A DNA stretch of 64,000 nucleotides from Pelomonas aquatica (GTDB lineage: Bacteria > Pseudomonadota > Gammaproteobacteria > Burkholderiales > Burkholderiaceae_C). The notes under the pieces were generated by a model. That model did not search any database. It was not told the DNA's origin and saw nothing but the letters and a program-made list of their open reading frames with translations. Below are positions 13,163 through 40,225 of this stretch, in pieces; the stretch's first letter is position 1; every line of letters begins with the position of its first letter. The DNA lies in assembly GCF_026712205.1 (NCBI RefSeq), contig NZ_JAPPUW010000002.1, forward strand, positions 1-64,000, read 5' to 3'. A program made the position numbers and the translations under genes.

Positions 13163-13428
13163 GGGTCTGCTCGCACCCCGGCAACGGGTCGCGTTGCTAC
13201 CAGAAAGGCCGCGAGCAAGGCGCAAACCGCAGCCGGGCAGGTTGCCCGACGAGGATTTGCAACGCCGCGCGCGGCCTTTCTGGTAGCAACCCTTCGGGAA
13301 GGCTCGCCATCAGGGGCCACTCGGCGTTGCATCGCTGGCCCGCACATGAGTGCGGGCGGCGCGCTGCGCCTTGATTGGCCCCTGATGGCGAGCCTTCGCG
13401 ACCCATTGCCGGGGTGCGAGCAGACCCT
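13163..13428. repeat. nested palindromic element 1 (outer stem with two hairpin arms)
   Basis: A 266-bp structure filling the space after fahA. Outer inverted repeat: 13163-13194 with about 13397-13428, 31 of 32 bases matching. Inside are two arms. Arm A has a perfect 21-bp stem (13194-13214 with 13271-13291) and is capped by CGGGCA-GGT-TGCCCG. Arm B has a perfect 22-bp stem (13299-13320 with about 13377-13398) and is capped by CCCGCAC-ATGA-GTGCGGG. The interiors of A, and of B read on the other strand, both begin CAAGGCGCA and end GCAACGCCG. The right outer arm ends on the fahA stop codon. Coordinates in the right half may be off by one. As DNA it could form a cruciform; as RNA, a three-way junction. 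Confidence 0.9.
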
Positions 13429-14659
13429 AGGCGGGCAGGATCAGGCCGTCGCAGGGGCCGAATCCGATGCGGCGGAATCCGGGTTTCTCCGCAAACGCGC
13501 GCAGGCCGAGCTGGTCGCCGTCGAGCATGAAGGTTCGCTGCTCGCCATCCGGCAGCGTGATGGGCTGCTTGCCGCCCAGCGTCAGCTCCAGCAGCGAGCC
13601 GGCCTCGTCGGGCAGCGGGCCGCTGAGGGTGCCGGTGCCCAGCAGATCGCCCGGCTGCAGATTGCAGCCGTTGCTGGCATGGTGGGTCAGCATCTGCGCG
13701 AGCGACCAGTAGGCGTGGCGCAGGTTGGAACGCGAGAGGCGTGTCGGTGCCGCCATCGACGGCGTCTTGAACCAGACCTCCAGCTCGATGTCGTAGGCCG
13801 CACCGGCGCGGTGGGCGGGCGAGTCCAGATAGGGCAGAGGCTGCGGGTCCTCGGCGGGCCGCGTGAACGGGATGCGGAAGGGCTCCAGCGCATCCATCGT
13901 GACGATCCACGGCGACACGGTCGTGCCGAAGTTCTTCGCCAGGAAGGGCCCCAGCGGCTGGTACTCCCAGGGCTGGATGTCGCGGGCCGACCAGTCGTTC
14001 AGCAGCGTCAGGCCGAAGGCATGCGCGTCCGCCTCGTCGATGCCGAAGGGCTCGCCCAGCGCATTGCCCGGCCCGACGTACAGGCCCAGCTCCAGCTCGC
14101 AGTCGATGCGGGCGCTGGGTTTGAACACCGGCGCCTCGGCCTCCGGCGACTTGACCTGTCCCTTGGGGCGGCGCAACGGCGTGCCGCTGACGACGATGGA
14201 GGAACTGCGGCCGTGGTAGCCGATGGGCACCCACTGGTAGTTGGGCAATAACGGGTTGTCCGGGCGGAACAGCTTGCCGACCGCGCGTGCGTGGTGGATG
14301 CCGGTGTAGAAGTCGGTGTAGTCGCCGATGCGGCAGGGCACGCGGTATTCGGCCTGGGCCTGGGGCAGCAGCTCGACCTCGGGTGCGCCGGCCTTCAAGG
14401 TGTCGAACAGGCGGTGCCGCAGCGCGCGGCGCTCGCTGGCCGGGCGGGCCATCAGCGCGTTCAGGTCGGCGATGCCCCAGGTGGAGAGGTCCAGGATCTG
14501 GTCGCCGATGCCGACGCCCACGCGCCAGGGCTCCAGCGTGCCTTTGCTCCGGAAGGAGCAGAACGGCAGGTTCTGCAGCGGGAAGTCGGTGGCGGGGTCG
14601 TTGGCCGAGGCGACCCAGGAGAGGGCCGCGGCGTCGTGGGTGTGATCGATGTGGCTCAT
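13427..14659 (-). CDS. fahA: fumarylacetoacetase
   Basis: A 410-residue enzyme hydrolysing fumarylacetoacetate to fumarate and acetoacetate, the last step of tyrosine/homogentisate breakdown. Family motifs: YTDFYTGIHHARAVGKLFRP, SSSIVVSGTPLRRPKGQ, and LNDWSARDIQPWEYQPLGPF, with acidic metal ligands in the region CELELGLYVG. The ATG at 14659 overlaps the hmgA stop by ATGA, so the two are coupled. Length matches the family. No maleylacetoacetate isomerase gene is adjacent. That step must be encoded elsewhere or be spontaneous or glutathione-dependent. Confidence 0.95.
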   Translation of the reverse strand: MSHIDHTHDAAALSWVASANDPATDFPLQNLPFCSFRSKGTLEPWRVGVGIGDQILDLSTWGIADLNALMARPASERRALRHRLFDTLKAGAPEVELLPQAQAEYRVPCRIGDYTDFYTGIHHARAVGKLFRPDNPLLPNYQWVPIGYHGRSSSIVVSGTPLRRPKGQVKSPEAEAPVFKPSARIDCELELGLYVGPGNALGEPFGIDEADAHAFGLTLLNDWSARDIQPWEYQPLGPFLAKNFGTTVSPWIVTMDALEPFRIPFTRPAEDPQPLPYLDSPAHRAGAAYDIELEVWFKTPSMAAPTRLSRSNLRHAYWSLAQMLTHHASNGCNLQPGDLLGTGTLSGPLPDEAGSLLELTLGGKQPITLPDGEQRTFMLDGDQLGLRAFAEKPGFRRIGFGPCDGLILPA

Positions 14660-15948
14660 GCTTTGAATTCGTCCTTCAGGCCCTGCCAGCAGTCGGCATA
14701 GGTCTTCTCGAGCGGTGCGTCCCGCAGCGCCCAGGCGGTGGGCTTCAGCGGCCAGCGGGTCTCGAACATGAAGGCCAGCGTCGCGTCCAGCTTGTGGGGC
14801 TTCAGGTCGGCGTTGCTGGCCTTGTCGAAGGCCTCGGTGTCGGGGCCGTGCGGCACATAGCTGTTGTGCAGGCTGGCGCCGCCGGGCTTGAAGCCCTCGG
14901 GCTTGGCGTCGTACTGGCCCAGCACCAGGCCCATGAATTCGCTCATCACGTTGCGGTGGTACCAGGGCGGGCGGAAGCTGTCCTCGGCCACCATCCAGCG
15001 CGGCGGGAAGATGACGAAGTCGACATTGGCCCAGCCCGGCGTGTCGCTGGGGCTGGTCAGCACCGTGAAGATGCTGGGGTCCGGGTGGTCGAAGCTGACG
15101 GTGTTGATCGTCATGAAGCGCGCGGTGTCGTAGCGGCAGGGCACGAGGTTGCCATGCCAGGCGACGACGTTGAAGGGGCTGTGGCCCTGGGTCGCGCGCC
15201 AGAGCTGGCCGCCGTGGCGCTTGACGATCTCGTAGCTGCCGGCTTCCTGTTCGTACCAGGCCGTGGGCGTCTCGAAATCGCGTGCGTTGGCGAGGCCGTT
15301 GGAGCCGATGGGGCCCAGCTCCGGCAGGCGGAAGGCCGCGCCGTGGTTCTCGCAGACATAGCCGCGCGCGGGCCCGTCCAGCGGGTCCACCTTGAAGGCC
15401 ATGCCGCGTGGCAGCAGCGCGATGAAGCCCGGCGCCACCTCCAGCCGGCCCAGTTCGGTCGTCACCAGCAGCCGGCCCTGCTGAGGCACGAGCAGCATCT
15501 CGGCGTCGGCGTTCACGAGCGCGCGGCGGCCCATGGCTCGGGTCGCGACATAGGCGAGCGCGGCCATGCCGCCGGTGCCGGCCTCGCCGTTGACCGCATA
15601 GCTGCGCAGGCCGTCGATGAAGTCGCCCTCGCCCTGCAGCGGCGTCGGGCCCCAGCGCAGCGGGTCGGGCGGCGCGGCCTCGCCGGCAGCCGCGCCGCTC
15701 TTCCACAGCGCATGGGCCAGCGGCGTGTAGCCGCCGACGACGACCGAGGGCTGGCGGCGGTAGAGCCAGGTGCGCTGGTTCTGCGCGCGCGGCGCCGTGA
15801 ACGCGCTGCCCGACAGCAGCTCGGCATAGAGGCCGTGGGGCGCGCGCTGCGGGCTGTTGCGGCCGATGGGCAGCGCGCCGGGCACGGCCTCGCTGCTGTG
15901 CTGGTTGCCGAAGCCGGTGATGTATTGCAGGGAGGTCAGTTCAGTCAT
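14656..15948 (-). CDS. hmgA: homogentisate 1,2-dioxygenase
   Basis: A 430-residue cytoplasmic non-haem iron dioxygenase that opens homogentisate to maleylacetoacetate. Characteristic stretches are the start LTSLQYITGFGNQHSSEA, GLYAELLSGSAFTAPR, and the iron-site region PPWYHRNVMSEFMGLVLGQYDAK followed by SYVPHGPDTEAF. Complete length for the family. Its start overlaps the DUF2783 gene by 8 bp and its stop overlaps fahA by ATGA. Control by the divergent IclR regulator is likely from gene order. Confidence 0.96.
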   Translation of the reverse strand: MTELTSLQYITGFGNQHSSEAVPGALPIGRNSPQRAPHGLYAELLSGSAFTAPRAQNQRTWLYRRQPSVVVGGYTPLAHALWKSGAAAGEAAPPDPLRWGPTPLQGEGDFIDGLRSYAVNGEAGTGGMAALAYVATRAMGRRALVNADAEMLLVPQQGRLLVTTELGRLEVAPGFIALLPRGMAFKVDPLDGPARGYVCENHGAAFRLPELGPIGSNGLANARDFETPTAWYEQEAGSYEIVKRHGGQLWRATQGHSPFNVVAWHGNLVPCRYDTARFMTINTVSFDHPDPSIFTVLTSPSDTPGWANVDFVIFPPRWMVAEDSFRPPWYHRNVMSEFMGLVLGQYDAKPEGFKPGGASLHNSYVPHGPDTEAFDKASNADLKPHKLDATLAFMFETRWPLKPTAWALRDAPLEKTYADCWQGLKDEFKA

Positions 15949-16141
15949 GATGTTCGCGGGCCAGCGCGAAGGCTTGCCTGAGCACTTCGCGGTCGCCGAT
16001 GTGGTTGCACAGGATCAGGGTCAGCCTCGCGAGCCAGTCGGCGGCCTGCGCGTCGCCCAGGTCGGCCTGGGCGGCGATCAGTTCGGCATAGAAGGCATCG
16101 GCCTCGTCGCCGAAATTCGGGGTCAGGTTCAATTTGCTCAT
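15941..16141 (-). CDS. DUF2783 small protein of the homogentisate operon
   Basis: A 66-residue acidic soluble protein, MSKLNLTPNFGDEADAFYAELI onward, with several helix-forming segments and no membrane part. Matches the small DUF2783 family commonly found next to homogentisate genes; function unknown. It overlaps the monooxygenase stop (ATGA at 16138-16141) and the hmgA start (8 bp), so it is translated as part of the operon. It might assist the dioxygenase or monooxygenase, but nothing in the sequence proves this. Confidence 0.8.
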   Translation of the reverse strand: MSKLNLTPNFGDEADAFYAELIAAQADLGDAQAADWLARLTLILCNHIGDREVLRQAFALAREHHD

Positions 16142-17727
16142 TCGGACCTCCCATGGGCGCGCGCCAGGGCCGCGCGGACGGCCGCGGCGTCGAAGGCATG
16201 CCAGCGCGCCGCGACGATGGCGTCGGGCCGCACCAGGTAGAGGCTGCCCGGCCGCGCGCCGTAGCGCGTCGCGGCCAGGCCCTCGCCGGGCAGGGTGATG
16301 AGCTTCACGCCCTCCACCGCCACCGGCCAGCCGAAGGCCAGCAGCGCGAAGCCGCCGGCCAGCGCCTCGCTCAGCCAGCCCCCCGCTTCCAGCGGCGCAT
16401 CGGGCGCCGGGCAGCCGGGCCCGGGGCCGCCGGCCCAGGCCTGGTCGTCGAGCGTGCTCAGCGGCGAGTCCACATGCTCGGTCGGCATGGAGAGCCGGCC
16501 GCTGTTGACCAGGGGTTTGGCGAACGCCGTGTGGGCGGCCAGGTCCAGCGCGGCCTTGCGCAGGCGCCGGCTCAGCGCGCTCTTGGGGCTGATGAAATCG
16601 GTCGCCCGCGTCGAGTGGCCGATGTTGTCGTCGGCCGCCTCGATGCGCTCGAACTCGTAGCTGTCCAGCAAGCCCAAACCTGCATCAGCGCCCTCGCCCT
16701 TCAGCACCGCGGCGAGCTTCCAGCCGAGGTTGTCGACGTCCTGCACACCGCTGTTGGCGCCGCGCGCACCGAAGGGCGAGACCTGGTGGGCCGCGTCGCC
16801 GGCCAGCAGCACGCGGCCCACGCGGAAGCGCTCCGCGCGCCGGCAGGCGAACTGGTAGATGGACGACCAGGCCAGCTCGAAGGGCGCGCCGTCCAGCATC
16901 TCGCTCACGCGCGCCTTGATGCGCTCGGGCTGCTTCTCGGCCTCGACGTCGGCGTCGCGGCCGAGCTGGAAGTCGATGCGCCAGAGGCCGTCGGCCTGCG
17001 CATGCAGCAGCACCGATTGGCCGGGGTGGAAGGGCGGGTCGAACCAGAACCAGCGCTCGGGCCGAGCCGGGTCCAGGCCGCGCGGCCGGGCGCCGGGCGC
17101 GAGCCTCACGTCGGCGATCAGGAAGCGGTCCTCGAAGACCTGGCCGGTGAAGCTCAAGGACAGCATCGTGCGCGTCGGGCTGCGCGCGCCGTCGCAGGCG
17201 ACGACCCAGTCGGCCCGCATGTCGAACAGGCCGTCGGGCGTGCGCACATTGAGCGTGACGCCAGCCTCGTCCTGCTCCAGCCCGATCAGCTCATGCCGGC
17301 CGCGCAGCTCGATGCGCGGCTCCAGCTGCGCGGCACGCACGAGGCGGGCCTCGACCTGGTCCTGCTGCAGGTTGACCATGGCCGGCATCTTGTGGCCGGC
17401 CTCGGGCAGCAGGTCGAAGCCGTAGGCCTCGCGCTCGCCGTGGAAGACGCGGCCGCGCTGCCAGCGCACGCCCTCGCGCGCGACGGGCTCGCCGACGCCG
17501 AGGCGGTCGAACACCTCCAGCGTCTTCTTGGCCCAGCAGACCGCGCGCGAGCCGCTGCCGATGTGGTCGCTGTCGTCGATGACGACCACCGGCACATCGC
17601 GCCGGGCCAGGTCGAGCGCCAGCGTCAGCCCGACCGGGCCGGCACCGACGATGACGACGGGCCGGCGCTGCGGCTGGCCGGAGCGCTGCTCCAGGCTCTG
17701 GTGGTAGGGGTAGGACGGGAGCTGCAT
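16138..17727 (-). CDS. FAD-dependent aromatic monooxygenase (MhpA-like)
   Basis: A 529-residue flavoprotein hydroxylase. The FAD/NADH-binding motif VVIVGAGPVGLTLALDLARR is near residues 24-43. A DG-type motif (WVVACDGARSPTR) and the second FAD motif LLAGDAAHQVSPFGARGANSGVQDVDNLGWKL place it in the PheA/MhpA group. A C-terminal thioredoxin-like extension is typical. Its place in the homogentisate operon suggests that it feeds the pathway by hydroxylating a phenylacetate derivative to homogentisate (as 3-hydroxyphenylacetate 6-hydroxylases do), but the substrate is inferred. Shine-Dalgarno GGAGG overlaps the end of the MBL gene. Confidence 0.85.
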   Translation of the reverse strand: MQLPSYPYHQSLEQRSGQPQRRPVVIVGAGPVGLTLALDLARRDVPVVVIDDSDHIGSGSRAVCWAKKTLEVFDRLGVGEPVAREGVRWQRGRVFHGEREAYGFDLLPEAGHKMPAMVNLQQDQVEARLVRAAQLEPRIELRGRHELIGLEQDEAGVTLNVRTPDGLFDMRADWVVACDGARSPTRTMLSLSFTGQVFEDRFLIADVRLAPGARPRGLDPARPERWFWFDPPFHPGQSVLLHAQADGLWRIDFQLGRDADVEAEKQPERIKARVSEMLDGAPFELAWSSIYQFACRRAERFRVGRVLLAGDAAHQVSPFGARGANSGVQDVDNLGWKLAAVLKGEGADAGLGLLDSYEFERIEAADDNIGHSTRATDFISPKSALSRRLRKAALDLAAHTAFAKPLVNSGRLSMPTEHVDSPLSTLDDQAWAGGPGPGCPAPDAPLEAGGWLSEALAGGFALLAFGWPVAVEGVKLITLPGEGLAATRYGARPGSLYLVRPDAIVAARWHAFDAAAVRAALARAHGRSE

Positions 17728-17730
17728 GGC

Positions 17731-18699
17731 TCAGCCTCCTTCCAGCGCCTTCCACATCTCGACATCGCGCTCGGCCGTCCAGATGCGCGGGTGGGCGGTG
17801 CCGCCGGCTTCGTCATAGGCACGCGTCACGTCGAAGGGCATGCAGTGGTCGAAGATGACCCAGTGGCCGTATTTGGGCCGCAGCGTTTCAAGAGTGCGCT
17901 GGTAGACCGGCTTCAGCGCCTCGCCCGCCTTCACGCCGGCCTGCACCGCGGCGTACAGCTCGCTGACGAAGGCGCGCGTGCCGGCCAGGCCTGCGGCCAC
18001 CTGCCCTGCCCCCTTCAGCGCAGGGCCGCGGCCGGGCACGAGGGCGGCCGCGTCGAGCCTGGCGATCGCGTCCAGCGTCGCCGGCCAGTCCTCGAAATGC
18101 GCATCGCCGCAATAGGGCGTCGCGTCGAACTCGACGAGGTCGCCGCTGAACAGCACGCGCTCCTGCGGCAGCCAGGCCACCGTGTCGCCGGCCGTGTGGC
18201 CGCGCCCGGGCGAGAACATCTCGACCTGCACGCCACCCAGGTCCAGCGTCAGCCGCCCCGAGAAGCTCAGCGTCGGCCAGGTCAGCCCCTGCGGCACGGA
18301 CTCGACATTGCGGAACAGCCGCGGGAAGCGGCCGATCTCGCTGGCCTTGTCCTGCTCGCCGCGTTCCTGGATCAGGGCCAGCGTCGCATCGCTGGCGATG
18401 ACCTGCTCCAGGCCCACGGCCTTGAAGGCCGACGCGCCCAGCACCCGCACCGCGTGGTAGTGGCTGAGCAGCACGTATTTGATGGGCACGGCCGACACCT
18501 CGCGGATGCGGCGGATCACGTCGGCCGCCATGACGGGCGTGGCCTGGGTGTCGATCACCATGGCCGCGTCGCGCCCGATGACGATGCCGGTGTTGGGGTC
18601 GCCCTCGGCCGTGTAGGCCCAGGCATGCTCGGACAGGCGCTCGAAGCTGACCTGCTTTTCTTCCAGGTCGGCTTGCGAGGCAAAGGCTTTGACGCTCAT
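17731..18699 (-). CDS. MBL-fold metallo-hydrolase
   Basis: A 322-residue metallo-beta-lactamase-fold protein, first gene of the homogentisate operon. Motifs: DTQATPVMAADVIRRI, LLSHYHAVRVLGA in place of the usual HxHxDH, PGRGHTAGDTVAWLP, LFSGDLVEFDATPYCGD, and a final His in WVIFDHCMP. The first metal motif reads HYHAVR, lacking the usual Asp-His pair, so metal binding must differ from classical members. The role in the pathway is unknown; a hydrolase acting on an ester or lactone precursor is possible. Transcribed from the divergent promoter region shared with the IclR gene. Confidence 0.75.
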   Translation of the reverse strand: MSVKAFASQADLEEKQVSFERLSEHAWAYTAEGDPNTGIVIGRDAAMVIDTQATPVMAADVIRRIREVSAVPIKYVLLSHYHAVRVLGASAFKAVGLEQVIASDATLALIQERGEQDKASEIGRFPRLFRNVESVPQGLTWPTLSFSGRLTLDLGGVQVEMFSPGRGHTAGDTVAWLPQERVLFSGDLVEFDATPYCGDAHFEDWPATLDAIARLDAAALVPGRGPALKGAGQVAAGLAGTRAFVSELYAAVQAGVKAGEALKPVYQRTLETLRPKYGHWVIFDHCMPFDVTRAYDEAGGTAHPRIWTAERDVEMWKALEGG

Positions 18700-18770
18700 C
18701 CACAGTCTCCGGTAGTCGCTGAGCGAAATTTAACCTATTCCAAATCAATTCATCAATATAGAATTTTCAA
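18700..18770. promoter_or_regulatory. divergent promoter/operator between homogentisate operon and IclR gene
   Basis: A 71-bp AT-rich gap between the start codons of the MBL gene (minus) and the IclR gene (plus), in otherwise very GC-rich DNA. It holds AATTCATCAATATAGAATT, an imperfect inverted repeat with AATTC/GAATT ends, of the size expected for an IclR-type operator. Assignment as operator is inference; no consensus was confirmed. Confidence 0.55.
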
Positions 18771-19496
18771 ATGGATGACGCCAAGGCCCCGCGGGGCATA
18801 CAGAGCATCGAGGTCGGCGGGCAGTTGCTGCTGGCCCTGGCCCACCACGGCCGCCCGATGGCGCTGAAGGATCTGGCCCGCGACGCGGGCATGACGCCGG
18901 CCAAGGCCCACCCCTATCTGGTGAGCTTCATCAAGCTGGGCCTCGTGGAGCAGGACGGCGGCAGCGGGCCCTACGGCCTCGGACCGCTGGCGCTGCAGCT
19001 CGGCCTCATCAGCCTGCAGCAGTACGACCCGGTGCGGCTGGCCACGCCGGTCATCGAGGATCTGGCCCTGCAACTGGGCCACACGGTGGCGATTGCCGTG
19101 TGGGGCACGCGCGGGCCGACCATCGTGCGCGTGGCCGAGGGGCCGACGCCGGTGCACGTCAGCATGCGCCATGGCACGGTGATGAGCCTGTCGGGCACGG
19201 CCTCGGGCCGGCTGTTCGCCTGCTGGCGGGCCGCGGAGGCGGTGTCGTTGGGAGAGCGCCTGCCCGACGAAGCCACGACGGCAGCGGTGCGAGAGGCTGG
19301 GCTGGCGACGTCGCGCGACGGCGTCGTGGCCGGGGTCAGCGCCGCGGCGGCGCCGGTCTTCGATGCCGCGGGGCGCTTGGTGCTTGCGCTGACGGCCATC
19401 GGCCCGAGCGCAAGCTTCGACACGGCCCTGGATGGCGCACCCGTGGCCGCGCTGCGTGACGCGGCCGCCCTGCTGTCACGCAGGCTGGGGCATTGA
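18771..19496 (+). CDS. IclR-family regulator of homogentisate catabolism
   Basis: A 241-residue regulator. N-terminal winged helix-turn-helix (residues ~8-65: GGQLLLALAHHGRPMALKDLARDAGMTPAKAHPYLVSFIKLGLVEQ), then the IclR effector-binding domain with SLSGTASGRLFACW and the C-terminal APVFDAAGRLVLALTAIG. Divergent from the homogentisate operon with only 71 bp between, the usual layout for HmgR-type repressors that respond to homogentisate or an upstream aromatic acid. Effector not determinable here. Confidence 0.88.
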   Translation: MDDAKAPRGIQSIEVGGQLLLALAHHGRPMALKDLARDAGMTPAKAHPYLVSFIKLGLVEQDGGSGPYGLGPLALQLGLISLQQYDPVRLATPVIEDLALQLGHTVAIAVWGTRGPTIVRVAEGPTPVHVSMRHGTVMSLSGTASGRLFACWRAAEAVSLGERLPDEATTAAVREAGLATSRDGVVAGVSAAAAPVFDAAGRLVLALTAIGPSASFDTALDGAPVAALRDAAALLSRRLGH

Positions 19497-20180
19497 TCAG
19501 GGCAGCCGGGCCAGCATCGCGGCCTCGGCGGCCGCGCCCCAGAACAGCGGATACAGGCAGCGCGAGGTCGGCATCAGCTCCGGGCGGCCGCCCAGCAGCG
19601 CGATCTGCTCGCGGATGGTGGCGAAGTCGATGCTCATCAGCACGGCCGGCGCATCGACGCGCGGGTTGTGCCGCGGCGTCGTGTAAGGCAACAGGCCCAG
19701 CCAACGGCGATAGAAGGCGACGTGGCGGGGGTTCACCTCGATGACGAGGCGATCGCAGCGCGCCCGGCGATGGGCATGCAGATAACCCAGGTGGAAGATC
19801 TGCGCCAGCACGCGCTTGGACTCCGGCGCATCGCGGTCCACGGCCAGGCTGCCGAACTCGCAGAGACTGACACCGGCCGCCCGCCACTCGGCCAGTTCGG
19901 CCTCGAACAGCAGGTCGGTGTGCAGGCCGCCGTGGCCGTCGAAGCGCACACTCATCGTGCCGATGGTGCGCTCGCCATCACGCGCGGAACAAACGACGTC
20001 GCCATCCTCGTTGCGGCTGCTGTAGCGCTCGCGGGTCAGCAGGCCGCGGTCGCTGTAGCGGCGCTCCATCAGGTCGAGGGCATCCCCTTCGATCGCGCCG
20101 AAGTCGCTGTTCAACTCCAGCGGCGGACCGCCGAAGGGGTTCAGCGGGGCGCGCTGGCTTTCTTTGAAGAAGGGGATCAT
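19497..20180 (-). CDS. FeeM-like N-acyl amino acid synthase (GNAT fold)
   Basis: A 227-residue GNAT-type protein. Core features are TIGTMSVRFDGHGGLHTDLLFEAEL, CEFGSLAVDRDA and RVLAQIFHLGYLHAHRRARCDRLVIEVNPRHVAFYRRWLG, which match the FeeM type that joins an acyl chain from acyl carrier protein to an amino acid. The ATG at 20180 is favoured over 20189 because AGGA lies eight bases before it, while the upstream ATG touches its AGG. No acyl carrier or FeeL-like gene is adjacent, so product and function remain open. It is convergent with the IclR gene (stops touch at 19496/19497). Confidence 0.6.
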   Translation of the reverse strand: MIPFFKESQRAPLNPFGGPPLELNSDFGAIEGDALDLMERRYSDRGLLTRERYSSRNEDGDVVCSARDGERTIGTMSVRFDGHGGLHTDLLFEAELAEWRAAGVSLCEFGSLAVDRDAPESKRVLAQIFHLGYLHAHRRARCDRLVIEVNPRHVAFYRRWLGLLPYTTPRHNPRVDAPAVLMSIDFATIREQIALLGGRPELMPTSRCLYPLFWGAAAEAAMLARLP

Positions 20181-20422
20181 CGACTGCATCCTAGGGTGGG
20201 GCTCAACACGCCGAGCCGTGGAGTCTAGGGATTGAAATGTGATTTTTCCCGGCCACTCACACACCGATACACATAAATGACGCCAAAACGGGGTTTACCC
20301 TGTTCCAGGAGGGGGCGGCCACTTCGGCGGCAAAGGCGGCCTCACGCAGTTGCGCTTCGTTCGTCGTGATCAACTTACGATGGGACTTGCACCCACAGGA
20401 GTGCGCCCATGCTGGGCGCACC

Positions 20423-20448
20423 AAAAAAGGCCGCGCATCGGCGTGGCC
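20423..20448 (-). terminator. rho-independent terminator of the CorC-SapC operon
   Basis: On the minus strand, 23 bases after the SapC stop, a GGCCACGC-CGAT-GCGCGGCC hairpin is followed directly by TTTTTT. A second perfect 9-bp hairpin (GTGCGCCCA-TGC-TGGGCGCAC) lies next to it at 20401-20421. The rest of the 20181-20470 gap shows no gene. Confidence 0.8.
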
Positions 20449-20470
20449 TCGGAGCGGGCGCGCAGCGCGC

Positions 20471-23543: not shown

Positions 23544-23633
23544 GGAAGCGTGGGAGAGTGGTTTAATCCAGCGGTCTTGAAAACCGCCGAGGCCGTGAGG
23601 TCTCCGTGAGTTCGAATCTCACCGCTTCCGCCA
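23544..23633 (+). tRNA. tRNA-Ser (UGA anticodon), prophage attachment site
   Basis: Type II tRNA with a long variable arm. Acceptor stem GGAAGCG pairs with CGCTTCC, and the discriminator G is followed by encoded CCA. The anticodon loop CTTGAAA gives anticodon TGA. T-arm GTTCGAATC is normal. Its 3' end is repeated at 30909-30924, marking integration of the filamentous prophage; the tRNA itself is intact. Confidence 0.95.
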
Positions 23634-24766: not shown

Positions 24767-24769
24767 CCC

Positions 24770-30873: not shown

Positions 30874-30908
30874 CGTTGGTGTTTTTACCCTCTTGACTGG
30901 TTCGGAAA

Positions 30909-30924
30909 TCACCGCTTCCGCCAC
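30909..30924 (+). other. attR core of the inovirus
   Basis: A 16-bp copy of the tRNA-Ser 3' end (TCACCGCTTCCGCCAC). Only the tail of the tRNA is present, with phage DNA to the left and chromosomal DNA to the right. Confidence 0.9.
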
Positions 30925-33005: not shown

Positions 33006-33064
33006 GGTTCTCCCGACTGCAGGGCGGCCAGTTTAGGAGGGCCCGGATGCCCCTGCGCCGGCGG

Positions 33065-34273
33065 CTAATTCTTGGGGTTCCAGAAGTCTTCCAGGTAGTT
33101 GAAGCCCCAGTTCTCGGGCGGCTCACGGCCGGCGATGCGGTCCGATGTGCCGGGGGCGGCGAGGTCCAGCAACTGCACCGGGATGGGCATGTTCGACTTG
33201 GTCGAATAGAAGACCTTGACCCGCGGCGCCACCAGCGACGCGGGGTTCTGGTCCACCACCACGGCCAGCCGGCCCGACTGCAGGCGCACCAGCGTGCCGG
33301 TCGGGTAGATGCCGACGCTCTTCACGAAGGCCTGGAAGACAGCCGGGTCGAACTGGCCCTTCCACTGCGCCATGCGCTGCAGCGAGCCGGCCGGATCCCA
33401 GGCCGCCTTGTAGGGCCGCGTGGATGTGATCGCGTCATAGACGTCGCAGACGGCGCCCATGCGCGCCAGCAGGCTGATCTGCTCGCCGGCCAGCTTGTGG
33501 GGGTAGCCGGTGCCGTCGATCTTCTCGTGGTGGTGCAGGCAGACGTCCAGCGCGGTGGCCGGCACCTTGGCGCCTTCCTTCAGCAGCTCCCAGCCGCGCT
33601 CCGGATGGCTGCGCATCACGCTGAACTCGGCATCGGTCAGCGAGCCGGGCTTGTTCAGCACCTCCAGCGGCATCTGCATCTTGCCGACGTCGTGCAGCAG
33701 CCCGGCCAGCCCGGCCTCGCGCGCCTCGGCGTCGCCCATGCCCATCTGCCGGGCCAGGGACACCATCAGGCCGCAGACGGCGACCGAGTGCATGTACGTG
33801 TAGTCGTCCCGCGTCTTCAGCCGGGCCAGGCTGATGAAGGCCGACGGGTTGCGCGCCAGCGACGACGCGACCTGCTCGACGATGGGCAGGCAGCTTTCCG
33901 AATCGATGGCATTGCCCAGGCGGGCCTCCGTGAACAGCGCCGTCACGGCCTGCCGGGAGCGGTGCAGCACCTCGGCCGCGCGGCCGATCTCGTCCTCGAA
34001 ATGGGCATTGGGCTGGCGCGCGGCGGCCGGTGCAGCGGCCGGTGCCGCAGGCCGCGCGGGCACGGCCGCCGGCGCCGCCACGGGCCCGACATCGCATCCC
34101 CTGTCGACATCGATCCACACCGCCGCCACGCCGCTGGCCTTGAGCGCCGCCAGGTCGGCCTCCTCCGTCAGCACGAAGCTGGTCTTCCAGAACGGATGCG
34201 ACAGCCAGGAGCCCTCGAGAGCCTGCAGGAACATCCCGAGCCTGGCTTCGGAGGTGGGAATCTTTTTCAACAT
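33065..34273 (-). CDS. HD-GYP cyclic-di-GMP phosphodiesterase with DUF3391
   Basis: A 402-residue cytoplasmic signalling protein. The N-terminal DUF3391 domain (MLKKIPTSEARLGMFLQALEGSWLSHPFW) is joined by an Ala/Pro linker to an HD-GYP domain. The domain has LLHDVGKMQMP (His194-Asp195) and HHHEKIDGTGYP (248-258), i.e. the intact HHExxDGxGYP signature, so activity is expected. Start at ATG 34273, where the DUF3391 domain begins; upstream in-frame starts add no recognisable sequence. Target process unknown; such enzymes usually affect motility and biofilm. Confidence 0.9.
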   Translation of the reverse strand: MLKKIPTSEARLGMFLQALEGSWLSHPFWKTSFVLTEEADLAALKASGVAAVWIDVDRGCDVGPVAAPAAVPARPAAPAAAPAAARQPNAHFEDEIGRAAEVLHRSRQAVTALFTEARLGNAIDSESCLPIVEQVASSLARNPSAFISLARLKTRDDYTYMHSVAVCGLMVSLARQMGMGDAEAREAGLAGLLHDVGKMQMPLEVLNKPGSLTDAEFSVMRSHPERGWELLKEGAKVPATALDVCLHHHEKIDGTGYPHKLAGEQISLLARMGAVCDVYDAITSTRPYKAAWDPAGSLQRMAQWKGQFDPAVFQAFVKSVGIYPTGTLVRLQSGRLAVVVDQNPASLVAPRVKVFYSTKSNMPIPVQLLDLAAPGTSDRIAGREPPENWGFNYLEDFWNPKN

Positions 34274-34374
34274 TGCAAGCGCGACTCTCGCGCCGAGTAT
34301 CCGCGCCATCGGCGGGACGCGGGAGCCGGCGAGCGTGCAGCCCTGCACGCTCGGCCCGCTTCCCAGCACCCAGC

Positions 34375-34399
34375 AAAAAGCCGCCCTCGCGGGGCGGCT
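34375..34399 (-). terminator. terminator after cytochrome c4
   Basis: On the minus strand AGCCGCCC-CGCGA-GGGCGGCT is followed by TTTT, 23 bp below the cytochrome stop. Confidence 0.8.
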
Positions 34400-34422
34400 C
34401 CTGGGCGGCGGCGCGGGGCCGG

Positions 34423-35067
34423 TCAGCGGAACTTGTTCTGCGGCACCGTGCGCAGCTCGCTCGGCAGCGAGGCGATGTAGGCGGCGATGGCCTTCAGCTC
34501 GGCGTTGCTGAACTGCTTGACCTGGCCGGCCATGATGGCGTTGCCGCGGCCGACATTGGGGTTGCCTTCGGTCTTGTAGGCCTTCAGCGCAACGCTCAGG
34601 TAGTCGGCATGCTGGCCGGCCAGCTTGGGGTAGCTGGGGTCGATGGGCTTGCTGAAGTTGGCGCCGTGGCAGGAGATGCAGGCGCCCTTCTTCAGCAGCT
34701 CGGCCACCTGGGCCGGCGCCTCGACAGGGGTGTCGGGCACGGCGGGCGCCTGGGCCTGCTGTTCATAGAAGGCGGCGACGTCGGCGATGTCCTGGTCGTT
34801 CAGCGAGCCGGCGATGCCGCGCATCGTCGGGTGCCTGCGCTCGCCCTTGGCATAGGCATGCAGGGCCGACGCGATGTACTTGGCGTTCTGGCCCGCGATC
34901 ATCGGCACCTTGTGGATCTCGGGGAAGCTGGCCTGATAGCCCGCGATGCCATGGCAGCCGATGCACATCGCCACCTTCTTCTCACCCGCCTTCGCATCCT
35001 GAGCCTGGGCGGCAAAAGCGCCAAGCAGGGTGGCCAGGACGAACGACATCTTCAGCAGTTTTTTCAT
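34423..35067 (-). CDS. dihaem cytochrome c4
   Basis: A 214-residue periplasmic electron carrier. Signal peptide MKKLLKMSFVLATLLGAFAAQA. Two haem c sites are CIGCH (35-39) and CISCH (130-134), each followed at a distance by a candidate axial Met (PTMRGI; NAIMAGQ). The two halves resemble each other, as in cytochrome c4, which passes electrons from the bc1 complex to terminal oxidases. Single gene with its own terminator. Confidence 0.92.
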   Translation of the reverse strand: MKKLLKMSFVLATLLGAFAAQAQDAKAGEKKVAMCIGCHGIAGYQASFPEIHKVPMIAGQNAKYIASALHAYAKGERRHPTMRGIAGSLNDQDIADVAAFYEQQAQAPAVPDTPVEAPAQVAELLKKGACISCHGANFSKPIDPSYPKLAGQHADYLSVALKAYKTEGNPNVGRGNAIMAGQVKQFSNAELKAIAAYIASLPSELRTVPQNKFR

Positions 35068-35103
35068 GTCTCGATGGGTGTCGGGTTCTTGAGCGGCGGC
35101 GAT

Positions 35104-35121
35104 TATAGGAGGGCTCCTATA
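35104..35121. promoter_or_regulatory. palindrome TATAGGAGGGCTCCTATA in the cytochrome/MoxR divergent promoter
   Basis: A perfect 8-bp inverted repeat (TATAGGAG / CTCCTATA, 2-bp centre) in the 89-bp gap between cytochrome c4 (minus) and the MoxR gene (plus), the only AT-containing part of that gap. It could be an operator or overlap a -10 box. No protein is assigned. Confidence 0.45.
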
Positions 35122-35156
35122 CTGGTCCGGCCCCCTTCAAACCCCGGTTTTCCCCC

Positions 35157-36011
35157 ATGAAATTCCAAGGTTCCGACCAGTACGTCGCCACCGCCGACCT
35201 GATGCTCGCGGTCAATGCCGCGGCCACGCTGCAGCGTCCGCTGCTCGTCAAGGGCGAGCCCGGCACGGGCAAGACCATGCTGGCCGAGGAGGTCGCGTCC
35301 GCCCTCGGCATGCCGCTGCTGCAGTGGCATATCAAGAGCACGACCAAGGCCCAGCAGGGCCTGTACGAGTACGACGCCGTCAGCCGGCTGCGCGACAGCC
35401 AGCTCGCCGGCATCGAGGGCAGCGAGCGCGTCAGGAACATCGAGAACTACATCGTCAAGGGCGTGCTGTGGCAGGCCTTCGAGGCGGACCGCCCGGTCGT
35501 GCTGCTGATCGACGAGATCGACAAGGCCGACATCGAGTTCCCGAACGACCTGCTGCGCGAGATCGACCGCATGGAGTTCTACGTCTACGAGACGCGCCAG
35601 CTCGTCAAGGCCCGGCACCGGCCGCTGGTCTTCATCACGTCCAACAACGAGAAGGAGCTGCCCGACGCCTTCCTGCGCCGCTGCTTCTTCCACTACATCA
35701 GGTTTCCCGACGCCGAGACGATGCGCAAGATCGTCGACGTGCACTTCCCGACCTTGAAGAAAGACCTGCTCGCCGCCGCGCTGAAGAACTTCTACGACGT
35801 GCGCAACCTGCCCGGCCTGAAGAAGAAGCCCAGCACGTCGGAGCTGATCGACTGGCTGAAGCTGCTCGTCGCCGAGGACGTGCCCGTGGACGCGCTGCAG
35901 GCCAGGGACGAAAAGGTCAGCATCCCGCCGCTGGTGGGCGCGCTCTTGAAGAACGAGCAGGACCTGACCCTGTTCGAGAAGCTGGTCTTCATGCAGAGGA
36001 ACAACCGCTGA
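35157..36011 (+). CDS. MoxR-family AAA+ ATPase
   Basis: A 284-residue ATPase. Walker A GEPGTGKT at 33-40, Walker B VVLLIDEIDKAD near 113-124, sensor-1 LVFITSNNEKELPDAFLRR and the arginine finger in RRCFFHYIRFP. MoxR ATPases act with VWA-domain proteins as metal- or complex-maturation chaperones. A VWA/CoxE-like gene lies three genes downstream on the same strand, probably in the same array. Its stop overlaps the next start (TGATG). Confidence 0.92.
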   Translation: MKFQGSDQYVATADLMLAVNAAATLQRPLLVKGEPGTGKTMLAEEVASALGMPLLQWHIKSTTKAQQGLYEYDAVSRLRDSQLAGIEGSERVRNIENYIVKGVLWQAFEADRPVVLLIDEIDKADIEFPNDLLREIDRMEFYVYETRQLVKARHRPLVFITSNNEKELPDAFLRRCFFHYIRFPDAETMRKIVDVHFPTLKKDLLAAALKNFYDVRNLPGLKKKPSTSELIDWLKLLVAEDVPVDALQARDEKVSIPPLVGALLKNEQDLTLFEKLVFMQRNNR

Positions 36012-36607
36012 TGCAGGCCGTCCTTCCCCTGACGCTGGCGGCAGGGCCGATCCGCCTCGTGCCGCTGGCGCTGGACCACGTGCCCGGCCTGCAGGCCGCG
36101 GCGGCCGACGGCGAGCTGTGGAATCTGCGCTTCTCCAGCGTGCCCGAGCCCGTGCAGACACGCGCCTATGTCGAGACCGCGCTCCGGGGCCAAGCCGACG
36201 GCCACCGCCTGCCCTTCGCCGTGCTGGACGCGGCCAGCGGCGAGGTGCTGGGCTCGACCAGCTATCACGACATCGTGCCGGCCATAGACCGCGTCGAGAT
36301 CGGCTACACCTGGTATGCCCGGCGCGTGCAGCGCAGCGCCGTCAACACGACGGCCAAGCTGCTGCTGCTGAGCCATGCCTTCGAGACCCTGGGCGCGCAA
36401 CTCGTGGGCTGGCGCACCGACAACTTCAACCACGCCTCGCAGCGCGCCATCGAGCGCCTCGGCGCCAAGCGCGACGGCGTGCTGCGCCACCACGCGCTGC
36501 GCCGCGACGGCACGGTGCGCGACAGCGTCATGTACAGCCTGACCGTGGGCGAATGGCCCGAGGTCAAGGCGCATCTGAACTGGCAGCTGAGCCGACCCCG
36601 CGCATGA
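36011..36607 (+). CDS. GNAT acetyltransferase (RimJ/RimL type)
   Basis: A 198-residue acetyltransferase. IRLVPLALDHVPGLQAAA at the start, then VLGSTSYHDIVPAIDRVEIGYTWYARRVQRSAVNTTAKLLLLSHAFETLGAQLVGWRTDNFNHASQRAIERLGAKRDGVLRHH, the signature of ribosomal-protein-alanine/N-terminal acetyltransferase relatives. Overlaps the MoxR stop and the peptidase start, so it is translationally coupled to both. Substrate unknown. Confidence 0.88.
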   Translation: MQAVLPLTLAAGPIRLVPLALDHVPGLQAAAADGELWNLRFSSVPEPVQTRAYVETALRGQADGHRLPFAVLDAASGEVLGSTSYHDIVPAIDRVEIGYTWYARRVQRSAVNTTAKLLLLSHAFETLGAQLVGWRTDNFNHASQRAIERLGAKRDGVLRHHALRRDGTVRDSVMYSLTVGEWPEVKAHLNWQLSRPRA

Positions 36608-38586
36608 AGCAAGCCGCCAAGGCCTTCGACGTCGACGCGCTCTGGGCCCTGGACCGCATCGGCGAGCCCAGCCTCGCCCCCGACGGCGCCCAGGCCGTGG
36701 CCGGCGTCACGCGCCACTCGATGGAGGCCAACAGGGCGCAGGCCAGCCTGTGGCTGTTCTCGACGCTGGGCGGCGCGCCGCGCCGCCTGACCGAGGCCGG
36801 CGAGAAGGACGGCAACCCGCAGTGGAGCCCGCGCGGCGACCTGATCGCCTTCACGGCCAGGCGCGCGCAAGGCGGCGCGGCCGACGAGGAGGCCCAGCTC
36901 TACGTCATCGCGCCCGATGGCGGCGAGGCGCGCCGCGTCGGCCAGGTGGCCACCGGCGTCGAGGCCTTCAAGTGGTTCCCGGACGGCCGGCACATCGCCT
37001 TCGTATCCTGGGTCTGGCCCGACCGCAGGGCCGCCGCTCAGGCCGAGGCGCTGAAGGACTTCAAGGCCCGCAAGGAAACCGCCTATGTCACCGACGCGGC
37101 CCTCTACCGCTTCTGGGACCACCACATCCCGATGGGCCGCGTGCCGCATCTGCATGTGATGGACCTGGCCACGGGCCGGGTGCGCGACCTGTTCGAGGGC
37201 ACGGCCTGGGAACTCAGCCGCACCGAGCCGGATGCGAACGGCTTCGACATCGCACCCGACGGCCGCCGCATCGCCTTCTGCTTCGACCCGGCCACCGACA
37301 AGCGCACGGACGGCCGCTTCGCGCTGGCCGAGATCGACGTGCGCACGCGCCAGGCCCAGGTGCTGCTGCAGGACGCCGACTGGGACTTCGACGCGCCCTG
37401 CTACAGCCATGGCGGCGCCCATCTCGCCTTCCTGGCCAGCCAGCAGGCGCTCGGCCACAACCGGCCCCACCAGCTCGCCGTGCTGGACCAGCAGGGCCGC
37501 TGGGCCGTCTTCAGCGAGGACTGGGACCACGAAGTCGCCGCGCCGCTGCGCTGGGCCGCGGACGACCAATCCGTGCTGTTCGCCGCCGAGGACCGCGGCC
37601 GCCGCCATCTGTGGCGGTTCGGCCTCGGCGACCGGCTGGCCGAGCCCATCTTCGAGGGCGGCCATGTCGGCAGCTTCGCGCTCGCCGCCGACTTCGTCGT
37701 CATCAACCACGACAGCCTGCAGTTCCCGCCGCGGCTGTCCGTGCTCGGCGAGGACGGCCTGCGCCGCATGGAGGCGCTGAACGATGAGCGCCTGGCCGCC
37801 CACGCCTTCGGCCGCCACGAGGAAGTGATGATCACCGGCGCACGCGGCGACGCGGTGCAGATGTGGCTGGTCTATCCGCCCGGCTTCGACGCGAAGAAGA
37901 AGCACGCCGTCATGCAGCTAATCCACGGCGGTCCGCACACGGCCTTCGGCGACGGCTGGCACTGGCGCTGGAACCACCAGGTGTTCGCCAACGGCGGCTA
38001 TGTCGTCGCCTGCGTGAACTACCACGGCTCATCGAGCTTCGGCTTCGAGTTCCTCGACTGCATCACCGGCCGCTGGGGCGAGTACGAGCTGCAGGACGTC
38101 GAGGCCGGCACCGACTGGCTGCTGAAGAAACGCTGGGTGGACAGGAAACGCGTGGTCGCCGCCGGCGGCAGCTACGGCGGCCATATGGTCGCGTGGATGA
38201 ACGGCCATGTGGAGGCCGGCCGCTACCAGGCCTATGTCTGCCACGCCGGCTGCTACGACTGGCCGGCCATGGTCGCCGACGACGCCTACGACTGGCACCG
38301 CAAGGAGCTGGGCGCGGCCTGCTGGGACGACCCGGCCAAGGTGGCCGCGCAAAGCCCCGACACCTTCGCCAAGAACTTCAGCACGCCCACCCTCGTCATC
38401 CACGGCCAGCTCGACTACCGCGTGCCCGACGCCCAGGGCCTGGCCCACTACAACACGCTGAAAAGCCTCGGCGTGCCGGCCCGGCTGGTCTGGTTTCCCG
38501 ACGAAAACCACTGGGTACTGAAAGCCCGCAACAGTCGACTCTGGTACGGTGAGTTCTTCGCCTGGCTGAAGAAGTACGCGAGCTGA
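36604..38586 (+). CDS. S9-family prolyl oligopeptidase-like peptidase
   Basis: A 660-residue serine peptidase. The N-terminal part is a WD40-like beta-propeller (repeats such as GNPQWSPRGDLIAFTA, AFKWFPDGRHIAFVS, FDIAPDGRRIAFCF). The C-terminal alpha/beta hydrolase has nucleophile Ser523 in GGSYGG, Asp604 in GQLDYRVP and His636 in DENHW. No signal peptide, so probably cytoplasmic, cleaving short peptides or acyl-peptides. It starts by ATGA overlap with the GNAT gene. A structured repeat (copy A) follows its stop at once. Confidence 0.9.
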   Translation: MKQAAKAFDVDALWALDRIGEPSLAPDGAQAVAGVTRHSMEANRAQASLWLFSTLGGAPRRLTEAGEKDGNPQWSPRGDLIAFTARRAQGGAADEEAQLYVIAPDGGEARRVGQVATGVEAFKWFPDGRHIAFVSWVWPDRRAAAQAEALKDFKARKETAYVTDAALYRFWDHHIPMGRVPHLHVMDLATGRVRDLFEGTAWELSRTEPDANGFDIAPDGRRIAFCFDPATDKRTDGRFALAEIDVRTRQAQVLLQDADWDFDAPCYSHGGAHLAFLASQQALGHNRPHQLAVLDQQGRWAVFSEDWDHEVAAPLRWAADDQSVLFAAEDRGRRHLWRFGLGDRLAEPIFEGGHVGSFALAADFVVINHDSLQFPPRLSVLGEDGLRRMEALNDERLAAHAFGRHEEVMITGARGDAVQMWLVYPPGFDAKKKHAVMQLIHGGPHTAFGDGWHWRWNHQVFANGGYVVACVNYHGSSSFGFEFLDCITGRWGEYELQDVEAGTDWLLKKRWVDRKRVVAAGGSYGGHMVAWMNGHVEAGRYQAYVCHAGCYDWPAMVADDAYDWHRKELGAACWDDPAKVAAQSPDTFAKNFSTPTLVIHGQLDYRVPDAQGLAHYNTLKSLGVPARLVWFPDENHWVLKARNSRLWYGEFFAWLKKYAS

Positions 38587-38593
38587 CATGAAA

Positions 38594-38703
38594 CCCCTCG
38601 TCCAAGGAGTACCTTGGCCGGTCCCCCGAGGGGACGGCGATGCTCGCGGGGCTTGCCCCGCTCGCACATCGCCGGACGGGCCGGCTTGGGAGCGGCCCGG
38701 CGC
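38594..38703 (+). repeat. dispersed 3' multi-hairpin repeat, copy A
   Basis: Begins 7 bp after the peptidase stop, in gene orientation. Order of structures: CCAAGG-AGTA-CCTTGG, a CCCC/GGGG hairpin, the core hairpin 38636-38673 (GGCGATG...CATCGCC, inner stem GCGGGGC-TTG-CCCCGC) and GGGCCGGC with GCGGCCCGG. The inner stem differs from the other copies but remains paired. Confidence 0.85.
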
Positions 38704-38760
38704 TCGGCCCGCAGGTTTGATGCGCTGTGAATGGCGCGAGCGCTCAATGGAGCCCTGACG

Positions 38761-39951
38761 ATGCTGATCCAGTTCTTCTACACGCTGCGCGCCGCCAAGC
38801 TCAAGGTGACGGTGCCCGAGTACCTGACGCTGCTGGAGGCGCTGCAGGCCGGCGTCATCGCGTCGCCCGAGGACGGCGGCGTCGCGAGCATCGATGACTT
38901 CTACCACCTGGCCCGCGCCACGCTGGTCAAAGACGAGACCCAGTACGACAAGTTCGACCGCGCCTTCGCCGCCTACTTCAAGGGCGTGGAGATGCTGACC
39001 GACTTCAGCGCCGAGGTGCCGCTGGAGTGGCTGCGCAAGCAGCTGGAACTGGAGCTCACGCCCGAGCAGAAGGCCGCCATCGAGAAGATGGGCTGGGACG
39101 AGCTGATGGAGACGCTGAAGAAGCGTTTCGAGGAACAGAAGGAGCGCCACGAAGGCGGCAACCGCTGGATCGGCACCGGTGGCACCAGCCCCTTCGGCAA
39201 CTCGGGCTACAACCCCCAGGGCATCCGCATCGGCGGCAAGGGCGGGGGAAAAAGCGCCGTCAAGGTCTGGGAGCAGCGCGCCTACCGCGACTACGACGAC
39301 ACGCTGGAGCTGGGCACGCGCAACATCAAGGTCGCGCTGCGCCGGCTGCGCCGCTTCGCACGCGAGGGCTCGGAGCTGGAGCTGGACCTGGACGGCACCA
39401 TCCACGGCACGGCCGCCAGCGCCGGGCTGCTGGACATCCGCATGCAGCCCGAGCGCCACAACAAGGTCAAGGTGCTGCTGCTGATGGACGTGGGCGGCAC
39501 GATGGACGAGCACATCCACCGCGTCGAGGAGCTGTTCTCGGCCTGCAAGAGCGAGTTCAAGCACCTGGAGTTCTATTACTTCCACAACTGCGTCTACGAC
39601 TTCGTCTGGAAGAACAACCGGCGCCGCTTCGCCGAGAAGCTCAGCACCTTCGACCTGATCCGCAAGTACAACAAGGACTACAAGCTCGTCTTCGTCGGCG
39701 ACGCGACGATGAGCCCCTACGAGATCCTGCAGGTCGGCGGCAGCGTCGAATACAACAACGACGAGGCCGGTGCCGAATGGCTGCAGCGCCTCACCCACGC
39801 CTTCCCCAAGTACGCGTGGATCAACCCCGAGCCGCAAGGCGTCTGGCAGTACCGGCAGAGCATCGCGCTGATCCAGCAACTGATGCAGCAGCGCATGTTC
39901 CCGCTGACCCTCTCCGGCCTGGAAGGCGCGATGCGGCTGCTCAGTAAATGA
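38761..39951 (+). CDS. VWA-domain protein (CoxE-like), partner of the MoxR ATPase
   Basis: A 396-residue cytoplasmic protein. An N-terminal helical domain (MLIQFFYTLRAAKLKVTVPEYLTLLEALQAGV) is followed by a central Gly-rich linker and a VWA-like domain with KVLLLMDVGGTMDEHI (MIDAS-like, Gly in place of the usual Ser), FYYFHNCVYDFVW and VFVGDATMSPYEI. ATG 38761 has GGAG nine bases upstream. Such proteins work with MoxR ATPases. The array MoxR-GNAT-S9-VWA supports cooperation, though the client is unknown. Element 2 begins 4 bp after its stop. Confidence 0.88.
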   Translation: MLIQFFYTLRAAKLKVTVPEYLTLLEALQAGVIASPEDGGVASIDDFYHLARATLVKDETQYDKFDRAFAAYFKGVEMLTDFSAEVPLEWLRKQLELELTPEQKAAIEKMGWDELMETLKKRFEEQKERHEGGNRWIGTGGTSPFGNSGYNPQGIRIGGKGGGKSAVKVWEQRAYRDYDDTLELGTRNIKVALRRLRRFAREGSELELDLDGTIHGTAASAGLLDIRMQPERHNKVKVLLLMDVGGTMDEHIHRVEELFSACKSEFKHLEFYYFHNCVYDFVWKNNRRRFAEKLSTFDLIRKYNKDYKLVFVGDATMSPYEILQVGGSVEYNNDEAGAEWLQRLTHAFPKYAWINPEPQGVWQYRQSIALIQQLMQQRMFPLTLSGLEGAMRLLSK

Positions 39952-39955
39952 CGCG

Positions 39956-40225
39956 AGGAGTCTGGGGGGCGGCATGTGCGGCCCGCGCCAGGACGAGTTG
40001 CGGCATCCGGCAAGGCGCAGGTGACGCGGCGTGGCAGGCGCCACGCAAGGAGCCGGCAACGCCGCCGGATGCCGCAAATCGCCCTGGCCCTTCGGGTTGG
40101 GTTTGGCAGGGGGCGCGGGCGTTGTTGCTCGTCGTTGCGGGCGCGAGCCCGCGGCCTCCTCGACGCCTAGCCCGCGCCCCCTGCCAGACCCAACGCGGGC
40201 CACACATGCCGCCCCCCAGACTCCT
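39956..40225. repeat. nested palindromic element 2 (outer stem with two hairpin arms)
   Basis: A 270-bp structure with the same plan as the one at 13163. Outer inverted repeat: 39956-39987 with 40194-40225, 31 of 32 matching. Arm A: perfect 13-bp stem 39998-40010 with 40065-40077, capped by GCGTGGC-AGGC-GCCACGC. Arm B: 25-bp stem 40096-40120 with 40170-40194, 24 of 25 matching, capped by GCGGGC-GCGA-GCCCGC. Arm A interior is CAAGGCGCA...GCAACGCCG; arm B read on the other strand starts AGGCG and ends AACGCC. The right outer arm contains the tamA start codon (40206), so the left outer arm is an inverted copy of the tamA 5' end. Confidence 0.92.

Follow-up and report, generated by a model that had tools for sequence, protein, structure and literature searches.

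The closest described relatives of the elements reported here are the miniature inverted-repeat transposable elements (MITEs) of the IS5 superfamily. Two such elements, element 1 (13162–13428) and element 2 (39956–40225), are palindromes in the window, by which we mean the whole stretch of DNA analysed, the first 64,000 nt (forward strand) of contig NZ_JAPPUW010000002.1 of Pelomonas aquatica. With IS5-superfamily MITEs they and their relatives share a non-coding nature by size, inverted ends, multiple copies, TA or TNA duplications in part of the cases and, in one family (F2), the ends of an autonomous insertion sequence (IS). They differ from these MITEs in being almost wholly palindromic, often as a two-hairpin cloverleaf, and in a hairpin tip that is common to families with different ends and absent from the IS. 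Small size, terminal repeats and a very stable fold are likewise found in QMITE2 of Coxiella and in other folding bacterial MITEs, whereas neither a cross-family tip nor concerted change of the arms is described in the part of that report drawn on here (PMC10969869). Repetitive extragenic palindromes (REPs) and bacterial interspersed mosaic elements (BIMEs) are also palindromic, repeated and present across several proteobacterial classes; in the portion of the source used, REPs measure 20–40 bp and have, at one end, an unpaired tag (GTAG or CGTC) (PMC3733652). Unlike REPs and REP doublets forming hairpins (REPINs), the elements here show neither the tag at the foot nor this size, and their conservation lies in the tip of a far longer hairpin. 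Finally, template switching is known to homogenise the arms of inverted repeats, so that both arms change in one event; the relevant parts of these reports deal with yeast coding sequence and RNA genes, whereas here the process would act in bacterial mobile elements (PMC8604942, PMC8794818).

Both palindromes are palindromic MITEs, not a new replicon. They belong to a group that is real and widely distributed, in which families with different ends share one tip; no description of it was found among the open-licence papers listed for the tip motif, for the family or for template switching. Overall, the reading preferred here, with a probability of roughly 0.72, is that these are non-autonomous hairpin transposons of a large proteobacterial group, mobilised in trans, with arms that template each other and a tip that serves as a signal. 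In both palindromes an outer stem surrounds two hairpins with CCCTTCGGG between them, and the tips, about 52 nt each, face each other. A sequence-only reading of the window had called attention to a core of about 52 bp common to the arms, facing its partner in each element and set in compensating, locus-specific stems, and had proposed a replicating or structurally selected module, perhaps an undescribed genetic element. The core is real: AAGGCGCA...GCAACGCCG is exact in three of the four window tips (13217–13267, 13322–13372 and 40012–40064) and spans 52–54 bp if the preceding base is included. Its facing arrangement recurs in relatives, and the conserved tip within compensating stems is found in many copies. 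The stems, by contrast, are specific to families and not made anew at each locus, and in place of a new replicating module there are MITEs with defined terminal repeats, partial target duplications and, for F2, an IS with the same ends.

MITE identity and the partner insertion sequence

The assignment to MITEs is made because the elements end in defined terminal repeats, show target duplications in part of the cases and, in F2, share their ends with a complete IS. After deduplication, 71 of 87 copies were delimited with matching ends, up to 275 bp, which leaves no room for a transposase; lengths overall range from 103 to 275 bp. Automatic boundary finding by folding ran far into the flanks, and the counts were made without it. 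The domain PF13340 (DUF4096) occurs in 5 of the 20 genomes of a genus sample, and at three of five PF13340 loci examined (in G011, G006 and G008) there is an IS of about 825 bp whose terminal inverted repeat, TAGGGCCTGTTAACACTA, is the F2 end. It has a DUF4096 frame and an overlapping second frame, in which the G011 copy carries the DDE domain PF01609. The IS427-like group of the IS5 superfamily is characterised by a two-frame DDE transposase with DUF4096 and by TA duplication. Judged from its sequence, the F2 partner IS belongs to this group, and the window elements are too small to encode a transposase of their own. No match to the tip profile (see below) was found inside the partner IS up to E=10, and a fuzzy pattern with up to 4 substitutions gave only weak matches in or beside it, unlike the tip. 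Since this IS has F2 ends without the tip, the tip is probably not a basic transposase site. In G006 (L470) the copy of the partner IS, which stops at the contig end, is preceded at a distance of 162 bp by another left end of this IS (about 1278 and 1440).

Target duplications are seen in part of the set. A TNA duplication flanks 4 of 7 elements with GA ends, and TA stands on both sides of 12 of 49 elements with GG ends. The TamA-like locus of element 2 is empty in 17 of the 18 relatives read (G019 was left out) and occupied in G008.

Stop codons as probable insertion targets

A first, raw test found a stop codon at 38 of 70 elements, against 6.9% of random nearby positions. Because truncation of genes could contribute to this figure, it was replaced by a test on joined flanks, confined to the 16 elements with a clear target site duplication and controlled by same-motif sites in the flanks. 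At the joined empty site, a stop codon ends an open reading frame (ORF) of at least 150 codons in 13 of the 16, compared with 30 of 321 control sites (Fisher p 2e-10). With ORFs of at least 80 codons the numbers are 15/16 and 76/321, and stop codons on both sides occur at 4/16 and 1/321, respectively. As TA or TNA is duplicated at insertion and the elements start with G, TAG or the original stop codon is rebuilt. Since a GC-rich genome may offer few TA and TNA sites other than stop codons, scarcity of targets and survival of harmless insertions can both contribute to the association.

Copy number and spread of the tip motif

A genome-wide search for the pattern, together with a test for inverted flanks, was the check that the sequence-only reading had put forward, and it succeeded. 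The exact motif is present in 13 copies in the 5.12-Mb genome that contains the window (the own genome), and the reversed pattern in none. In the genus sample, 14 of 20 genomes (own genome included) contain the motif, with a maximum of 29 copies in G006, and the reversed control is zero in all 20; the single match in G011 looks like chance. A profile built from 42 tips gave 63 matches in the own genome at E<=0.01. About 50 of these were judged credible (51 rows reach at least 24.9 bits, with one partial match, on C16, set aside), a count for which part of the 51 rows was read individually. Twenty rows were fetched; 18 are elements, and two, L502 and L503, with 24.5 and 23.5 bits, are chance matches in coding sequence. 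Real tips also score low (23.1 bits on C8, 22.2 bits at 40012 in the window), and the profile misses most tips of family F3.

In a phylum sample, 21 of 398 genomes match the motif, and the reversed control matches in four genomes, once each. Some single matches (such as those in G319, G358 and G410) look like chance by their inner sequence. G401 has 42 matches, including an AT-rich version identical to one in a metagenome-assembled genome (MAG) of Mariprofundaceae (L180), a family that we take to be Zetaproteobacteria. In public genomes, 109 of the 120 distinct matches listed were used, the other 11 being too near contig ends. Inverted flanks (local score at least 15) were found at 54 of the 109, at 0.6% when flanks were swapped, and at none after shuffling. 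Most of the listed matches without inverted flanks also lack, by eye, the inner hairpin of the tip, and thus provide an internal control. The positives listed include Beta- and Gammaproteobacteria, together with a few possibly misbinned MAGs from other groups. Among the matches listed from viral contigs, inverted flanks occur at 1 of 118, giving no sign of carriage by phages there. Two single cases may be recorded: in G007 (L361), two identical F2-like tips lie about 95 bp apart on the same strand with N nearby, possibly a nested or tandem insertion, and at L138 and L088 tip hairpins seem to lie just 3' of a gene, groEL-like by eye, whose product ends in repeated GGM residues.

End-families and the fold of the tip

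Nine families of tip-carrying elements are distinguished by their ends in the own genome. F1 (ends GAACCTGTTCA), F2 (GGGCCTGTT, including element 1), F3 (GGAGYCTG, including element 2) and F9 (CTAGTCCACTGCGTC) are two-tip cloverleaves by fold, and F4 (GGCAACGCTGAACAAG), F5 (AGAAGCTGTGAATGAA), F6 (CTAGTACGCCG) and F7 (AGAGGTTGAGAG) are single hairpins by fold; F8 (TACGGGTTTGCAATC) was assigned from reading, not from folding. Some ends are alike in having CCTG a few bases in, which may mean that the families are related there. With one representative per family from the own genome, tips are on average 64% identical between families (range 38–90; shuffled 39), a value inflated by the choice of tips through fixed ends. 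The 45-nt flanking arms average 39% (range 32–51; shuffled 39). In 69 of 71 delimited F1–F3 elements the tips face each other, as in the window; the script did not resolve the other two. Two F9 copies of the own genome (L061 on C8 and L498 on C3) have a common outer stem and strongly different hairpin arms, which by eye seem to stand in opposite order. Two features are unusual: nine end-families of this genome, and several bacterial groups, have one tip in common, and the paired arms frequently change together (see below).

In the common fold of the tip, an AA bulge and a 3-nt bulge on the opposite side are separated by 3 bp; a variable stem follows, then an internal loop and, last, a variable hairpin (about 8 bp). 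It was examined in an alignment of 42 of 57 non-redundant tips, the rest being omitted for easier alignment, so that the covariation rests on the more regular tips. Of the 52 columns of this alignment, the 17 that never vary coincide exactly with the letters fixed in the search pattern and are for that reason uninformative by themselves. Two variable pairs beside the invariant columns covary, with 37 two-sided cells compared with 11.9 after shuffling. Pairing is kept in 97.0% of cells (87.0% shuffled; 10.5–45.6% in six slid versions), and the covariation score is 0.266 (0.070 shuffled). Two of the five covariation measures, namely pairs with two-sided change and further pair types, show no excess over shuffles. 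As the tip is recognisable in families with different ends, it is probably under selection of its own. The shared tip hints at a possible common function. Integron attC sites, as generally described, share with the tip an imperfect hairpin, bulged bases and variable stems; no pair of the attC boxes, RYYYAAC and GTTRRRY in the usual consensus, was found in the 42 tips (0/42) or the 71 elements (0/71).

Concerted change of the arms and competing explanations

The two arms of a stem frequently change in concert. In the two own-genome copies L418 and L420, 6 of 108 pairs differ, all of them on both sides and compensated, with no single change, and 3 of 46 unpaired positions have changed. Changes were further counted pairwise, by divergence bin, in 68 of the 71 elements (length 255–276). 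In F2 (37 copies), compensated double changes outnumber single ones in seven of eight bins, the first two of which contain two comparisons each. At 5–10% loop divergence there are 8.9 doubles and 7.2 singles over 111 pairs, where independence predicts about 1.4 doubles, not all of them paired. Such concerted changes fit the copying of one arm from the other, as in template switching.

The strongest competitor assumes that selection on DNA structure maintains the pairing, for instance if only elements that extrude as hairpins or cruciforms are moved, and that compensation takes two steps with no template switching. It is a possibility to be taken seriously, which we nevertheless hold to be less likely than not. 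Several data suit it or speak against rapid copying of arms. The young F7 family (10 copies) has mostly single changes (mean 5.1, against 0.36 double), as if singles came first, and in its column 4 the pairs CG, GC and GG all occur, as expected of a two-step path; on account of F7, copying of arms is not uniform. The F1 pair L062/L055 has 5 single and no double changes. Element 2 and its G008 ortholog differ within the element by 6 doubles that keep Watson-Crick pairing and by 12 one-sided changes, 8 of which break the pair, with 93 pairs unchanged and 2 of 48 unpaired positions changed. The balance of mismatch types described below could equally result from selection on DNA pairing, and loop divergence is a poor neutral yardstick, many unpaired positions belonging to the tip. 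Against this explanation, the six doubles without any single in L418/L420, at 3 changed unpaired positions in 46, would be very unlikely from independent mutations on the two sides. Moreover, the mean number of doubles in F2 climbs with divergence from about 9 to 19 (it is 1 in one bin of two comparisons), whereas singles remain at 6–8 until loop divergence exceeds 30%, where they are 11 and 15.

It may also be considered that the elements are a structured RNA (a regulator or a bidirectional terminator) that has spread as a repeat and whose stems are kept by selection on the RNA. The location after stop codons and the very strong folding would agree with this, and stable hairpins in transcripts have been noted for MITEs in the part of the literature drawn on (PMC10969869). 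Selection on RNA should leave its mark in the mismatches. Counted as events, G.T and A.C mismatches are 19:18 in the outer stem, 34:25 in the arms and 31:26 in the tips, with no significant preference for G.T. Counted as cells, G.T leads over A.C in the stems (88:67), slightly in tip A (28:20) and most clearly in tip B (155:29); shared ancestry inflates such cell counts, and tip B may have a strand preference, which would agree with an RNA. The little excess of G.T among stem mismatches points to copying of arms at the DNA level, not to selection on RNA. At the level of columns, 95 of 220 stem replacements are transitions and 125 cannot pass via a G.U pair, a number that misaligned arms between subfamilies may inflate. 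The elements tried (those of the window, L061, L010, L011 and L046) have no match in Rfam at gathering thresholds, the only hits being two tRNAs elsewhere in the window, and the ends are defined as in transposons. That selection on RNA keeps the stems is considered unlikely.

According to a further proposal, the stems are derived from the locus, each insertion copying target DNA into the inverted flank of the element. Element 2 and L308 are alike inside and different in the outer ~20 bp, each outer pair being complementary, and the CTCCT of the end of element 2 overlaps native sequence, as this proposal would have it. The ends of F1, F2 and F7 are conserved at many loci, which makes it very improbable. 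For element 2 itself, a target-derived inversion was considered and dropped, as the wider family shares the ends AGGAGYCTG and much of the subterminal arms. Hardly any room is left for a REP, BIME or REPIN moved by a REP-associated tyrosine transposase: E. coli REP has AAGGCG...CGCCG around a similar asymmetric loop, which may be a lead in its favour, whereas the conserved part here is a tip and not a tagged foot, the sizes are 103–275 bp and the F2 partner IS has a DDE transposase.

Returning to hairpin transposons mobilised in trans, several further results weigh against that reading. The mover is identified for F2 only, and only in relatives; PF13340 has no match in the own genome (G000), and two PF13340 loci, L468 and L472, lack F2 ends. 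A crude repeat search around the three PF01609 genes of the own genome gave no matching ends. For F1 and F3, neither PF13340 across the 20 genomes nor the surroundings of the PF01609 genes in the own genome turned up a mover. In 37 of the 49 GG-ended elements TA is not present on both sides, and comparison of element 2 with its empty sites, where the CTCCT overlap lies, gives no clean target site duplication. In a small control restricted to CTAG, 2 of 10 sites abut an ORF of 150 or more codons and 4 of 10 one of 80 or more. No factor reading the tip was identified in this analysis, and transposition is inferred from comparison of sequences.

Layout and surroundings of the two window elements

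Element 1 is a 267-bp cloverleaf with the ends AGGGTCTGCTCGC and GCGAGCAGACCCT. In hairpin A, the left arm (13193–13216, plus strand, as for all arms given here) pairs with the right arm (13267–13290) at 96% complementarity over 24 nt, and encloses a tip core of 51 nt on the plus strand (13217–13267; exact motif match, 53.6 bits with the tip profile). The linker CCCTTCGGG follows at 13290–13298 by fold, and the same or a similar linker is seen in relatives. In hairpin B, the arms at 13294–13322 and 13373–13401 are 93% complementary over 29 nt, with a 51-nt tip core on the minus strand (13322–13372; exact match, 42.5 bits). Comparison of inverted arms detected a third inverted pair of 36 nt with 94% complementarity. 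The stop codon of a FAA-hydrolase gene overlaps the end of the element at 13427–13429.

Element 2 is a 270-bp cloverleaf with the ends AGGAGTCTG and CAGACTCCT. The arms of hairpin A (39987–40011 and 40064–40088; 92% over 25 nt) carry a 53-nt tip core on the plus strand (40012–40064; exact match, 22.2 bits), and the linker CCCTTCGGG is placed by fold at 40088–40096. The arms of hairpin B (40093–40120 and 40170–40197) are 93% complementary over 28 nt, and the outer pair, by the same comparison of inverted arms, spans 76 nt with 72%. The tip core of hairpin B, on the minus strand at 40121–40169, reads directly as TAGGCGTCGAGG...GACGAGCAACAAC and is absent from the 20 window matches of the tip profile up to E=1. 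This tip is related to the motif but has diverged from it, and the AACGCC that the sequence-only reading gives as its ending comes only a few bases past 40169. The folding energies of the two elements have z-scores of -18.6 (element 1) and -17.0 (element 2) relative to 50 mononucleotide shuffles (RNA parameters).

Element 2 is flanked by a gene with a VWA_CoxE domain and by a TamA-like gene (Omp85/POTRA, then TamB; window 39948–42026). In the own genome and in G008 it leaves the frame open from the original ATG, with about 90 residues added, and in the G008 copy the right-arm part of the open frame has no methionine. Open frames through elements are common anyway (121/426, ~28%). tRNA genes lie in the window at 23544–23630 and 47404–47475.

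Possible mechanism and implications

In the mechanism that would account best for these data, transposases of the IS5 superfamily move the elements in trans. Insertion would take place at a TA or TNA that is the stop codon itself, and as the stop is rebuilt, the insertion would be tolerated. The hairpin would then allow one arm to act as template for the other by template switching in replication, so that new mutations are either erased or copied across. As for the bulged tip hairpin, our best guess is that it acts as a structure-specific signal in extruded DNA, and a host or accessory factor might read it and thereby aid the copying or the tolerance of small palindromes. More speculatively, the tip could be an independent, conserved DNA-hairpin signal that non-autonomous elements of Beta-, Gamma- and probably Zetaproteobacteria carry, whichever of several transposases moves them, with a common cellular reader; combined with copying of arms, palindromes could then renew themselves and switch mobilising enzymes while the tip is kept. 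This wider proposal is tentative, and we would sooner doubt it than assert it.

One tip motif ties together many intergenic palindromes that seem unrelated, and points to a way in which a MITE could persist when its transposase changes. The elements also provide bacterial cases in which paired arms change together, a pattern that could be mistaken for RNA covariation. For their location at gene ends they offer a simple explanation, namely that the target would be the stop codon, which the insertion restores.

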